Origin: Fervidicoccus fontis Kam940
GTDB lineage: Archaea; Thermoproteota; Thermoprotei_A; Sulfolobales; Fervidicoccaceae
Length of the DNA stretch: 64,000 bases
Assembly: GCF_000258425.1 (NCBI RefSeq)
Contig: NC_017461.1
Location: forward strand, 1,208,949 to 1,272,948
Direction of reading: 5' to 3'
Under the pieces are notes generated by a model that saw only the letters and a program-made list of their open reading frames with translations, did no database searches and was not told the origin of the DNA. The translations under genes were made by a program, and so were the position numbers. Shown here piece after piece: positions 9,160 to 59,519 of the stretch (positions are counted from its first letter, which is position 1; each line of letters opens with the position of its first letter).

Positions 9160-9188
9160 TTTTTTAATTTTTAATTTTTTGTATATTT

Positions 9189-9229
9189 TACAACTGAAAC
9201 CCTCGCCCTTTAGGGCGGGGGGAGGTCAG
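9189..9229 (+). repeat. Orphan palindromic end, IS200/IS605 right-end-like
   Basis: TACAACTGAAAC leads into a strong hairpin (CTCGCCC, loop TTTA, GGGCGGGG) and ends GGAGGTCAG. Near-identical units occur at 36073, 46699 and 58930, with a fragment at 38772. It lies just 3' of tRNA-Arg, outside any gene. The rest of the 9160-9368 gap is AT-rich without a visible gene. Confidence 0.75.
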
Positions 9230-35476: not shown

Positions 35477-36067
35477 ATGAAATTGTCTTTAAAGAAGCTT
35501 ATGGCATTAATGATTTTCCTGTTTTTAATTGGCGGTATATTAGGATATTTAATTGTACTGAGCGGTCAGAGCGATCTGATATCGCAGTTAATAGGAGGAG
35601 TTGGAGAAAAGGCGAAAACAATAAACTTTAAGCCATTTTCACCTTCATCTGTTCTTGCAATTTTTGTTAACAACTTAACCGTTTCTCTAATTTCAATCTT
35701 AAGCGGTTTGACAGTTGTAATTCCCTCTTTCATAGTACTGGCTAATGGTATAATTACCGGACTGGTTGTCGGGCTTTTAACTCAGGAAGGGTTGAGTGTT
35801 TTTTCTGGCATATTATCATTAATGCCGCACGGTATTTTTGAGCTTACGGCAATTTTTCTTTCAGCAGCTTACGGCACTTCTCTTGGAGTAAACTTTTGGA
35901 AGTTTATGTTTAGAAGAGAAAACAACTTTTTCGATGTATTAAAAAAGATGCCGAAGTACGTGCTGAATATTGTTATACTGCTACTTATAGCAGCAGTTAT
36001 AGAGGTTTTCATATCTCCTTTAGTTCTGCAGTTCCTCTTGAACAGCAAGACGCCTGTTCCTATATGA
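35477..36067 (+). CDS. SpoIIM-like (DUF95) membrane protein
   Basis: 196 residues with about five spans. The family signature LMPHGIFELTAIFLSAAYG is clear, and NNLTVSLISILSGLTVVIPS is the typical second region. Archaeal DUF95 proteins are related to stage II sporulation protein M; their role here is not known. ATG 35477 follows GTGG. A minus-strand palindromic repeat begins 6 bp after its stop codon. Confidence 0.85.
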   Translation: MKLSLKKLMALMIFLFLIGGILGYLIVLSGQSDLISQLIGGVGEKAKTINFKPFSPSSVLAIFVNNLTVSLISILSGLTVVIPSFIVLANGIITGLVVGLLTQEGLSVFSGILSLMPHGIFELTAIFLSAAYGTSLGVNFWKFMFRRENNFFDVLKKMPKYVLNIVILLLIAAVIEVFISPLVLQFLLNSKTPVPI

Positions 36068-36072
36068 ATTAT

Positions 36073-36114
36073 CTGACCTCCTCCCCGCCCTAAAAAACGA
36101 GGCTTTCAGTTGTT
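36073..36114 (-). repeat. Orphan palindromic end, IS200/IS605 right-end-like (minus strand)
   Basis: Read on the minus strand: AACAACTGAAAGCCTCG, loop with T-run, GGGCGGGG and terminal AGGAGGTCAG. It is the same unit as at 9189, 46699 and 58930. It lies immediately after the stop of the SpoIIM-like gene. Confidence 0.75.
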
Positions 36115-36194
36115 AAACAGCTAATTTCTTTTAATATTTAAAAATCACAGTGTTTAATTATATATAGAACTAACATTTTAAGGAGATGTTTGGC

Positions 36195-36840: not shown

Positions 36841-37524
36841 ATGACCGAAATAAATTATTACGGTCACAGCGCGTTTGAGATTCAATTAGTGGGGCTTGAC
36901 AATAGAGTTAAGACGGTTCTAATTGACCCTTGGATAACAAATCCGCTATCAAAAGCTAAAGTTGAAGATTTTTCTAATAAAAAGATCGACTATATCATTG
37001 TCACTCACGATCACTCAGATCATTTGGGGAATGCTTATGATATATGCAAAATAACGGGCGCTAAGATGGTAGGAGTTTATGAATTAGCTGAAGAGGCTGA
37101 AAAAAATGGGATTTCTGCGATCGGTGGAAATGTAGGAGGGCGATTGAGCATAGACGATTTAGATATAGTGCTCGTTCCTGCAGTGCATTCAAGTGAAAAA
37201 GCTGTTCCTGTGGGAGTTGTCGTATCAGGAAGGGACTTCACTTTTTACCATGCAGGGGACACAGGTGTTTTCACTGATATGAGCATAATAAGCGAGCTGT
37301 ATTCACCAGACCTCGCATTTCTTCCAATTGGGGGACACTTCACTATGGGAATAAAGGAAGCAGTAAAGGCAGTTCAGCTGATTAAGCCTAAAATGGTCGT
37401 GCCAATGCACTACAATACTTTCGAGGAGATTAAGGCTGATCCATTAGCCTTTAAGTCATTAGTCGAATCACTAACCAAGACAAAAGTTATAGTGGTAAAT
37501 CCTGGCGAGAAAATAATTTTATAA
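36841..37524 (+). CDS. UPF0173-type metal-dependent hydrolase
   Basis: 227 residues with a metallo-beta-lactamase fold: YYGHSAFEI, DPWITNP, the metal motif THDHSDHLG, HAGDTGVFTDM and the late VVPMHYNTF. It is a cytoplasmic hydrolase of unknown substrate. GGTGAG precedes ATG 36841. Bases 36901-36967 (codons 21 to about 43) recur perfectly at 38792-38858 next to a palindromic repeat fragment. Confidence 0.93.
   Translation: MTEINYYGHSAFEIQLVGLDNRVKTVLIDPWITNPLSKAKVEDFSNKKIDYIIVTHDHSDHLGNAYDICKITGAKMVGVYELAEEAEKNGISAIGGNVGGRLSIDDLDIVLVPAVHSSEKAVPVGVVVSGRDFTFYHAGDTGVFTDMSIISELYSPDLAFLPIGGHFTMGIKEAVKAVQLIKPKMVVPMHYNTFEEIKADPLAFKSLVESLTKTKVIVVNPGEKIIL
36901..36967 (+). repeat. Source segment of 67-bp duplication (inside hydrolase gene)
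   Basis: Identical to 38792-38858. It directly follows TTGAC (36896-36900), a pentanucleotide like those after which IS200/IS605 elements insert. Confidence 0.95.
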
Positions 37525-37588: not shown

Positions 37589-38575
37589 TTGTACAGGAGA
37601 AGAGTGCAAATTGTTGGAGGATCTACTTACATTCTCAGCCTTCCTAAAAGCTGGGCCGAAAAGGTCGATTTGAAGGAAGGTGAAGAGCTATTTGTTGAAG
37701 AACTCAGTAATCAGGCGCTTCTTATATACGCGCCAGAAAGAAGAGAGCATTTTTCAAAAGCAGAAATTTCTTTCACATGTAAGGAAAGCAGGAATTTTAT
37801 AGAGAGGACAATTATTGCTCAATACTTAGCCGGAAAGAAAGAAATAGTCCTACATGCGAGCGATGTTGAATGCAAAAAAACGCTTTCAAGCATTGCCGAT
37901 TCTCTGAAGAAAAAGGTACTTGGGCTAGAAATATTAGAAGAAACTTCAAACGACATCGTTTTGGGAGCTATACTTGACACAACATTTTCAGATATTACAC
38001 ATGTAATAAACAGCATGATGAAAACTATAATATACATGCTTGAAGATCTAGCTATTGGACTGCGCAAAAACGACTTAAAAATTATTAAGGATATATATCA
38101 AAGGGATGATTATATAGACAGGCTGTATCTATATTCTATAAGATACTTAGTTAACATTTACAATATGCCGACCCAAGAACGGATCAACCCAAGCTCTTCT
38201 GTTCATTACGCACTTGCCACAAAATCATTAGAAAGAATAGGAGACCATGTATCAGCAATATCAAAAAACTTGGAAGTAGAGCTTGTCCAGTCTAATATAA
38301 ACGACAAAGAAAAGGAAGGAATACTGAATTTGATTAATTCTATAAAGGATTTAGAATCTCAAATTCTAAAGCTGGTTTTGAAGTTTGATGGTGAGCTACT
38401 AAATGAAATAACTGAAAAAGCAATAAACTTGATGAATGTAGAATCAGAGCTTAGAGTATCTCTTCTTAAATATTCAGTTAACCTCAGCTACGTTGCAGAA
38501 AGTCTGAGGAGAATAATTGCATATTCAATCGATTTATTAGAGAGTGTGTTGGACATTAATGTTCTGCAAACTTAA
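37589..38575 (+). CDS. AbrB-PhoU fusion, archaeal phosphate-uptake-type regulator
   Basis: 328 residues. A SpoVT/AbrB DNA-binding domain (residues 1-45, RRRVQIVGGSTYILSLPKSW) is fused to two PhoU helical domains (about 110-328, with DITHVINSMMKTI and ERIGDHVSAISKNLE). Such fusions are common in archaea and are thought to regulate phosphate transport; no pst genes are near. TTG 37589 follows AAGGTG at the right spacing, and the protein then starts as in homologues. Confidence 0.88.
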   Translation: MYRRRVQIVGGSTYILSLPKSWAEKVDLKEGEELFVEELSNQALLIYAPERREHFSKAEISFTCKESRNFIERTIIAQYLAGKKEIVLHASDVECKKTLSSIADSLKKKVLGLEILEETSNDIVLGAILDTTFSDITHVINSMMKTIIYMLEDLAIGLRKNDLKIIKDIYQRDDYIDRLYLYSIRYLVNIYNMPTQERINPSSSVHYALATKSLERIGDHVSAISKNLEVELVQSNINDKEKEGILNLINSIKDLESQILKLVLKFDGELLNEITEKAINLMNVESELRVSLLKYSVNLSYVAESLRRIIAYSIDLLESVLDINVLQT

Positions 38576-38680: not shown

Positions 38681-38771
38681 AATGCATATATAATTCATAC
38701 ACTTTGTTGATTTGTGCTACACGACACTTTTTTTCACTTTGACAAAACAAGCGACAAGTCTCACTATTTAT

Positions 38772-38791
38772 GGCGGGGGGAAGGAGGTCAG
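38772..38791 (+). repeat. 3' fragment of the palindromic right-end-like repeat
   Basis: GGCGGGGGGAAGGAGGTCAG matches the 3' half of the units at 9189 and 46699, ending in the same GGAGGTCAG. The 5' half of the hairpin is missing. It abuts the 67-bp copied segment. Confidence 0.7.
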
Positions 38792-38858
38792 AATAGAGTT
38801 AAGACGGTTCTAATTGACCCTTGGATAACAAATCCGCTATCAAAAGCTAAAGTTGAAG
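38792..38858 (+). repeat. 67-bp perfect copy of an internal piece of the UPF0173 hydrolase gene
   Basis: Identical base for base to 36901-36967, same orientation, 1.9 kb downstream and outside any gene. It starts exactly after the terminal GGAGGTCAG of the palindromic fragment. The flanks differ from the source on both sides. Confidence 0.95.
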
Positions 38859-38912: not shown

Positions 38913-38967
38913 ATGATGAATGGTATTACCCCTGAAGCAATATGCAATGATGATAAAAGATGACTGA
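38913..38967 (+). ncRNA. Possible C/D box sRNA overlapping the cas4 start
   Basis: C ATGATGA (38913-38919), a 12-nt guide (38920-38931), D' CTGA (38932-38935), a perfect C' ATGATGA (38947-38953), a 10-nt guide and D CTGA (38964-38967). The D'-C' spacer (11 nt) is long, no terminal stem is evident, and the D box lies inside the cas4-like gene's second codon. Chance is possible. Confidence 0.4.
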
Positions 38968-39592
38968 AAATGTTCCATTTGACCAGTTAAACTTTTCCAA
39001 TATTGTAATCAAGAAAGTCTATGAGGAGAAACTGAAAGAGTTCAATGATAGACTATCAGAAATAAAAAATCCAAACATTATATATGTCTCAGATCTGGTT
39101 TACTGTCCATTGAAAAGGCTTTTCAGAATGCAATATCCTGAAATTTCTTTTATTTTTGAACCGCAGGCTATTCAGGGAGAGCTGATCCATAAGGGGTTAC
39201 AACTCTATTTAAAGGACTTGGGTTATGAGATAGAAAAGGAAATTTCAGAGAAGATATATATAAACTCCGAAGAGTTTGTTCTAAAGGGAAGAATGGATGC
39301 TTATAAAGAAGGGGAGGAAGTGATTGAAATAAAAACAGCAAAAAGTAGCTTAGGGATACCTCATGATCATCATATTCTTCAACTAAAAATTTACCTCTCT
39401 ATGACCAATATCAGCAAGGGCACTCTTATTTATGTCTCTCCCGATAGAATAGCAGAGTTTCCAATAAAAAAGGACAATTTGGATCTGAGTAAGCTGGTAT
39501 TTGACTACTTATCTAAAAAATATGCCCCTAGATGGGATTGGGAGTGCAAGAACTGTATATTCAGCAAGCTCTGTCCGTACAGATTGGAATAA
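38960..39592 (+). CDS. Cas4-like PD-(D/E)XK exonuclease with Fe-S cysteines (solo)
   Basis: 210 residues. The RecB-like core has ELIHKGLQ (His), LKGRMDAY (Asp) and VIEIKTAK (Glu-x-Lys). One Cys early (YCPLKR) and three late (CKNCIFSKLCPY) form the Fe-S cluster set of Cas4/AddB nucleases. There is no CRISPR array or other cas gene in the window, so this is a stand-alone Cas4-family protein that may work in DNA repair. It lies 23 bp upstream of trmI. ATG 38960 has only a weak ribosome binding site. Confidence 0.85.
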   Translation: MTENVPFDQLNFSNIVIKKVYEEKLKEFNDRLSEIKNPNIIYVSDLVYCPLKRLFRMQYPEISFIFEPQAIQGELIHKGLQLYLKDLGYEIEKEISEKIYINSEEFVLKGRMDAYKEGEEVIEIKTAKSSLGIPHDHHILQLKIYLSMTNISKGTLIYVSPDRIAEFPIKKDNLDLSKLVFDYLSKKYAPRWDWECKNCIFSKLCPYRLE

Positions 39593-46651: not shown

Positions 46652-46698
46652 TCTTAAGCTGATTCTCATCATTAATAAAGTGCTATAAATAAAACTTT

Positions 46699-46740
46699 TA
46701 CAGCTGAAAGTCTCGCCTTTTAAGGCGGGGAGGAGGTCAG
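46699..46740 (+). repeat. Orphan palindromic end, IS200/IS605 right-end-like
   Basis: TACAGCTGAAAGTCTCGCC, loop TTTTAA, GGCGGGGAGGAGGTCAG. Same unit as at 9189, and again just 3' of a tRNA gene. The remaining gap up to fixX (46741-47028) contains copy 2 of the 68-bp repeat and no gene. Confidence 0.75.
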
Positions 46741-58929: not shown

Positions 58930-58972
58930 CTGACCTCCTCCCCACCTTAAAAGGGGAGGGTTTCAGTTGTAA
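58930..58972 (-). repeat. Orphan palindromic end, IS200/IS605 right-end-like (minus strand)
   Basis: On the minus strand: TTTACAACTGAAACCCTCCCC, TTTTAA loop, GGTGGGGAGGAGGTCAG. Same unit as 9189. It overlaps the 3' end of the rdgB gene and supplies its last codons and stop. Confidence 0.75.
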
Positions 58973-59519
58973 ACCATTCGGCAAACTTCCTAGCTGCAAT
59001 TCCTCTATGACTGATTTTATTCTTTTCTTCAATACTCATTTCGGCAAGTGTCTTGCTATATCCGTTTGGAACGAAGACCGGGTCGTATCCAAAGCCGAAG
59101 TATCCCTTCTTCTCCATTCCAATTTCTCCGCAGAGCTCTCCCACAAATATTTTCTTTATATCGTAATAGCAAAAACATATTGCCGTTTTAAAGCAGGCCT
59201 TTCTATTTTCACTGTTTTTTAGCAGTTCAAGAAGACCATCAAGACCAACCGTCTTTAGAAAATACTCGGCATAAGGACCTGGGAAACCGTTCAGTGCCTC
59301 TATGTAAAGCCCGGTATCGTCAACAAGAATGGGCTTTTTTTCTTTCAAGAAGAGATTTTCTCCTGCAAATAGAGCGATTTCTTCAACGCTTTCTGCTTGG
59401 ATTTCCACTTTTTCTCTTTCTAAATGTTCAACATGTATGCCGTAGGCTTTTAAGATCTTACTGATTTCCATGAATTTATGTTTGTTTGTTGATGCGAAGT
59501 AAATTGTGAATGTGCTCAA
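58947..59519 (-). CDS. rdgB: RdgB/HAM1-type XTP/dITP pyrophosphatase
   Basis: 190 residues. YFASTNKHKFMEISKILKAY opens the family, ILVDDTGLYIEALNGFPGPY carries the catalytic Asp, FGFGYDPVFVPNGYSKTLAE and KISHRGIAARKF follow. It removes ITP and XTP from nucleotide pools. The C-terminal TTETLPF is encoded by the palindromic repeat at 58930, an addition to the normal end near EWF. It overlaps the Bud32 gene by 4 bp. Confidence 0.95.
   Translation of the reverse strand: MSTFTIYFASTNKHKFMEISKILKAYGIHVEHLEREKVEIQAESVEEIALFAGENLFLKEKKPILVDDTGLYIEALNGFPGPYAEYFLKTVGLDGLLELLKNSENRKACFKTAICFCYYDIKKIFVGELCGEIGMEKKGYFGFGYDPVFVPNGYSKTLAEMSIEEKNKISHRGIAARKFAEWFTTETLPF

Follow-up and report, generated by a model that had tools for sequence, protein, structure and literature searches.

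A 48-bp IS200/IS605-type element beside a copied gene segment in Fervidicoccus fontis: a candidate case of 3' transduction

Introduction

How does a fragment of an intact protein-coding gene come to lie directly behind a tiny palindromic repeat, in the same orientation as its source and 1,891 bp away from it? The question is raised by a locus of Fervidicoccus fontis Kam940 which is contained in the window analysed here, a stretch of 64,000 bp (C1:1208949-1272948; positions without a contig label are those of the window). A preliminary description of this DNA had noticed a palindromic end at position 38791 that is followed at once by a piece of a metallo-hydrolase gene, and had proposed that an IS200/IS605 element once sat in the gene, left it cleanly and took some of its 3' flank along; alternatively, the copy could act as a TnpB guide against the gene. 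To judge between these and other explanations, the duplicated segment, the repeat in front of it and the site in the gene must all be considered.

The duplicated segment

Pairwise alignment of positions 38792-38858 with 36901-36967 gives 67 identical bases out of 67, just as had been reported, and the identity is bounded by a mismatch at each edge (36900 C against 38791 G, and 36968 A against 38859 G). Both copies lie on the forward strand. In a search of the whole genome, a single contig of 1,319,206 bp, the segment is present at these two places and nowhere else, the second copy being found with an E value of 6.9e-30, so that a chance repeat is ruled out as the source of the identity. As the two copies have not diverged at all, the event that produced them appears to be recent.

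The source segment comprises codons 21-43, the last one cut, of an intact gene on the forward strand (36841-37524) that encodes a 227-aa hydrolase of the metallo-beta-lactamase fold (Pfam PF12706, E 8.6e-27). The copy is situated between a gene for a PhoU-domain protein (37589-38575) and one for a PD-(D/E)XK nuclease-like protein (38960-39592), the latter recognised by a match to PF13366 that is barely over the cut-off (22.2 against 22 bits). It begins at the first base 3' of GGTCAG, which is also the 3' boundary of a repeat family.

The junction between repeat and copy is known from one assembly, which leaves room for an assembly artefact. A search for the exact junction in the species collection gave no match, and neither did a search with 28 bases of the source segment against viral contigs; both collections may omit the records that belong to this genome. 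Against an artefact stand the single contig of the genome and the length of the segment, 67 bp, which is below the usual span of a read. As the repeat is moreover the only exact match to its type of CAAG hairpin in this genome, it is unlikely that the assembly was misjoined at a member of the repeat family, and an artefact is altogether very improbable.

A family of short hairpin elements

The palindrome GGAGGTCAG had been noted as a palindromic end. It is no isolated fragment: a pattern search recovers 28 matches in the genome and shows it to be the 3' terminus that the members of a repeat family have in common. Most of the 28 aligned matches share TTTAC-AACTGAAAGCCTCGCCCTTTAGGGCGGGGAGGAGGTCAG, their flanks are unrelated on both sides, and conservation ends right after TCAG. 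In the main family of this genome, the hairpin is preceded by a putative guide AAAG or AAAC and the 5' target is TTAC.

A covariance model was built from 16 of the pattern matches, with the element under study left out. At E <= 0.01 it finds 33 matches in this genome, 52, 60, 9 and 7 in four others of the same family (G004, G006, G003 and G007, respectively) and none in three further family genomes. Within the window, TTAC-type relatives are matched, flank included, at 9185-9229 (forward strand, 68.6 bits), 46695-46740 (forward, 69.4 bits), 58930-58975 (reverse, 69.3 bits) and 36073-36118 (reverse, 64.9 bits, AAAG-type). The last of these lies just past the end of a gene for a SpoIIM-domain protein (35477-36067), with its 3' end facing that gene.

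Longer relatives show how the short form is built. They have a left end that continues into GGATGA and a separate right end that closes with GGAGGTCAG; in clear long pairs, a right end ending in GGGGAGGAGGTCAG follows 214-250 bp after the left end, measured from start to start. The short copies consist of the left half of the one and the right half of the other, united through the hairpin common to both ends. Two short copies (L085, G003:C2:236222-236269, and L089, C9:173547-173594) are identical down to an unusual spacer, AATCCC, at two unrelated sites, which suggests that the terminal-only form is itself able to spread.

Several members depart from this scheme. At C1:1107288-1107333 and C1:1204851-1204896 (L077 and L074), the hairpin sequence is unlike that of other members, yet guide region and AGGAGGTCAG have been retained; in G006 (L096, C66:2734-2797), about 18 extra bases lie within the hairpin region, with the bounds TTTAC and TCAG still there. 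At C1:867416-867698 (L071, L076), a left end and, about 280 bp from it, a right end represent a longer non-autonomous relative or a remnant. Two similar stretches of the genome (L104, C1:808300-809700, and L103, C1:1100800-1102200), with pieces that are 75% and 88% identical, are possibly a repeated regulatory or RNA element; a TTAC-type short element interrupts one of them.

The 48-bp element and its ends

The feature in front of the copy is wider than first described. It spans positions 38744-38791 on the forward strand, follows TTTGAC (38738-38743) and reads AAAACAAGCGA-CAAG-TCTCACTATTTATGGCGGGGGGAAGGAGGTCAG, the tetranucleotide CAAG (38755-38758) directly 5' of the hairpin occupying the position of AAAG or AAAC in the main family and thus being the putative left guide G_L. 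The right cleavage motif TCAG (38788-38791) forms the 3' boundary; it is conserved in the family, and flanks diverge right after it. With 22.6 bits (E 0.0025 in the window), the element is a divergent family member.

The closest relative found, L162, belongs to another family of the order and reads TGACAAAACAAACGACAAGTCTTGCCCTTTAGGGCGAGGAGGAAGTCAG. The two align over their full length, each beginning after TGAC and ending with TCAG. A longer relative, L164, reads TTGAC followed by AAGAAACAAGCCTCGCCC and has the same kind of left end with CAAG, after which comes an open frame of 477 codons for a TnpB protein (PF01385, E 1.1e-33, plus PF07282); this ties the end to IS605-type elements. The left boundary of the 48-bp element is therefore set by comparison with L162 and L164, which goes beyond the argument originally made. 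As the TGAC/CAAG subfamily has the same left end in other families, random decay of a TTAC-type copy is ruled out.

Taken from its sequence, the element is a non-autonomous member of the IS200/IS605 type in which left and right end are joined via the hairpin, with no core between them. The assignment of the piece before the copy to this type was thus well founded, as it agrees with the family membership, the pairing of guide and target described below and the relatives linked to tnpB.

Like L164, a tnpB remnant in the genome itself, at C1:925026, connects the ends with tnpB, since a right end comes after it at C1:925336. It had also been suggested that the 67 bp might act as a guide against the hydrolase gene. 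The segment does follow a right end, where the guide of ISDra2 lies (PMC8612924), and a TGAC motif is present at the site in the gene. A working guide would be accompanied by an intact TnpB and a right-end scaffold and be about 16-20 nt long. None of this is found: the genome search gave no complete tnpB gene, only four partial matches, of which two have internal stops and the best one lies in a 193-aa frame; the element is without the longer right-end sequence (scaffold) of tnpB-type ends; and 67 bp are far more than the roughly 16 nt of the ISDra2 guide (PMC8612924). Such a guide would also cut the cell's own gene. The suggestion did not hold up and is hardly credible.

Pairing of guide and target

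For IS608, the base pairs A+16:T-3 and A+17:T-4 link the AAAG guide to its TTAC target (PMC5934647). Applied to a CAAG guide, the rule predicts TGAC as target, and TGAC is what stands before the 48-bp element. The earlier analogy to ISDra2 and its TTGAT was a useful lead, but the actual target motif of the subfamily is TGAC.

An exact pattern, CAAGYCTYRCYNTTYA, was searched in 197 genomes of the order and found in 38 of them. The one exact match in F. fontis is the element itself, a count from which more diverged copies could be missing. The CAAG/TGAC subfamily occurs across the order, including other families. A table of guides and targets was compiled from copies with a G-rich 3' arm; of the pattern hits, it covers the listed loci and 20 further stretches. 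Among 37 element-like copies with a CAAG guide, TGAC was present within 22 bases upstream in 22, TTAC in two and neither in 13; among 51 with an A-type guide, TTAC was present in 42, both motifs in one, neither in eight and TGAC alone in none. Seven rows with a G-type guide are right ends of the tnpB type and have neither motif. For the 66 unambiguous copies (C/TGAC 22, C/TTAC 2, A/TGAC 0, A/TTAC 42), Fisher's test gives p 1.5e-15, a value that is indicative only because the rows are related, the element under study is among the 22 and only part of the pattern hits is included.

A fixed short 5' target motif, TTAC or TGAC depending on the family, is accordingly combined with a putative guide 5' of the hairpin that would match it, CAAG with TGAC and AAAG or AAAC with TTAC. 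To judge from these copies, a one-base change in the guide (AAAG to CAAG) appears to go with a one-base change in the target (TTAC to TGAC), which would amount to a natural retargeting experiment.

The site in the hydrolase gene

TGAC stands immediately before the first base of the source segment. As previously noted, the full motif there is TTGAC, which can be read directly at 36896-36900 on the forward strand; its end falls in phase 0 between codons 20 and 21. TGAC directly precedes 0.19% of the positions in the window, about one per 530 bp of each strand. As the 3' boundary of the element coincides with the start of the copy, and the source starts after the very TGAC that the guide predicts, we infer that an element was once inserted after TTGAC; an element sitting there would place its TCAG beside AATAGAG. 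The proposal of TTGAC as an IS200/IS605 insertion site fits both the CAAG guide and the pairing seen across the order, and the former presence of an element between codons 20 and 21 is probable.

Such an insertion need not have killed the gene, since 48 bp at this spot are in phase, leave the reading frame open without a stop and fall into a turn of variable length; of 13 orthologues aligned, 11 have a turn that is shorter by five residues. By its sequence context, the gene could have tolerated the element. Outside this genome, the only DNA-level match to the 5' part of the gene covers 32 bases, in G019.

The order of events might also be reversed, with TTGAC plus the 67 bp duplicated first by an unrelated event and the element inserted at the copy later, so that the gene never held an element. 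TTGAC is common to the gene and the copy locus and could be a 5-bp microhomology, and no excision from the gene would be needed. The element must then have hit precisely the TGAC that borders the duplicated 72 bp and left unused the other TGAC within the copy, which ends at 38818. This sequence of events is improbable.

How the flank may have travelled

According to the account that we consider somewhat better than an even bet as a whole, a copy of the element sat after TTGAC in the gene and was transferred to a different TGAC site some 1.9 kb away. Its left end would have been cut correctly, which the TTTGAC in front of the present element fits; its right end would have been bypassed, so that it took along 67 nt from its 3' flank in the gene, and precise excision or segregation would have left the hydrolase gene whole. 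Host DNA directly 3' of the true end, with a source elsewhere that is preceded by the target motif, is the pattern of 3' transduction. The core of the original proposal has thus fared unequally: that an element was once in the gene is well supported, but its clean departure and the carriage of the flank are steps that we infer.

The transposase in this account would presumably be a Y1 enzyme acting in trans. A Y1 transposase is present in two of eight genomes of the family and was not found in this one, which speaks against the account. Given a recent event, it would have been lost recently, supplied in trans or not needed.

The state of the hairpin allows more than one reading. The family alignment gives a consensus of 12 pairs, and the element's own hairpin folds no better than shuffled sequences (z 0.29). 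It carries changes, whereas the adjoining 67 bp are free of mutations; hence the element diverged before it moved, or else the hairpin decayed selectively. A weak hairpin would fit a bypassed right end, yet it would equally handicap the left end, as there is a single hairpin for both. The right edge of the copy, with GTTGAAG inside and GTCTTT beyond, has no TCAG-like motif and is also unfit for the guide; a cryptic right end was rejected on this ground and because shuffled sequences fold just as well as the source stretch.

The lack of a second TCAG and the handicap of a single hairpin make break repair with template switching a serious rival. Here, an end broken at the element at 38744 would have invaded a second copy of the element in the gene; copying would have run through the right end into the 67 bp before switching back, and the copy in the gene would later have been excised. 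A cryptic right end is then unnecessary, and the route explains why a diverged and weakly folding element lies next to 67 unmutated bases; it also accounts for the short distance and the direct orientation. It does need two TGAC-type copies, where one exact subfamily match is seen in this genome and diverged ones could be missed. We regard this route as possible, though rather unlikely.

A genome-wide search for further copies of an end plus its flank had been suggested. For 27 further 3' flanks in this genome, no recent duplicate turned up (scored were 40 out of 99 initial candidates in one search and 40 out of 65 in the other), while the 67 bp itself, used as control, was recovered at both places. 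An older match of 75% at C1:1101356-1101439 is due to a pair of repeated regions, one of which holds an element; two further flank matches are weak and short (28 bases at 89% and 44 bases at 80%). In G052, six 3' flanks that belong to short copies with a C guide matched nothing except themselves. The carried flank is a single case in this genome.

Comparison with known systems

The nearest likeness is found in the terminal-only PATEs of Haloquadratum walsbyi, which are 52 bp long, perhaps mobile and explained by repeat-mediated deletion (PMC3119063). They too are IS605-type ends fused via a shared palindrome without a core, transposase-free, suspected of mobility and preceded by a 5' targeting oligonucleotide. 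In contrast to them, the present 48-bp element has an unrelated sequence and host group, is followed by host DNA seemingly carried from its 3' side and takes part in a switch of guide and target.

With IS608 and ISDra2 (PMC5934647), it shares a short motif 5' of the left end, a guide 5' of the hairpin, the pairing scheme of A+16:T-3 and A+17:T-4 and a right end resembling TCAA, TCAG in this case. Unlike those elements, it has no genes, a single hairpin where they have two, TGAC with CAAG where they have TTAC with AAAG, and a shorter spacing between cleavage site and guide. REP sequences and their TnpA_REP (PMC8266576) are similar in having a single short palindrome after a possible guide tetranucleotide and many copies per genome; REPs are GTAG-tagged and bacterial, whereas the ends seen here come from tnpB-bearing IS605-type elements and stand after TTAC or TGAC.

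For the carried flank, the closest parallel comes from eukaryotes. With Helraiser, 3' transduction is related to an end hairpin that is missing or unrecognised; it was seen in about 12% of events when the element was intact and in at least 36% when the hairpin was lacking (PMC4778049). In both systems, a 3' hairpin would fail or be bypassed and downstream host DNA would be carried to a new site; the Helitron process in that source is eukaryotic, rolling-circle and reaches the kilobase scale, and the link to a transposase is conjectural here. Searches of the open-licence PMC literature listed no paper that describes such 3' carriage by IS200/IS605 elements. The element is of a known kind; the carried gene fragment and the guide-target switch, read from sequence, appear to make it a variant.

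Implications

The evidence leaves an even chance that IS200/IS605-type elements, even one of 48 bp with nothing except a hairpin, can bypass their right end and carry gene fragments, with natural retargeting of guide and target in addition. Such gene capture may, by analogy, be a prokaryotic counterpart of capture by Helitrons, with new sites chosen by the guide. If this is true, very small transposons would move host sequence as Helitrons do, and the locus would be a fossil that displays source and landing site together. In the copies compared here, guide and target are seen to change together in nature, in line with the structure of IS608, so that the target of an element can be read from its sequence, which is testable.
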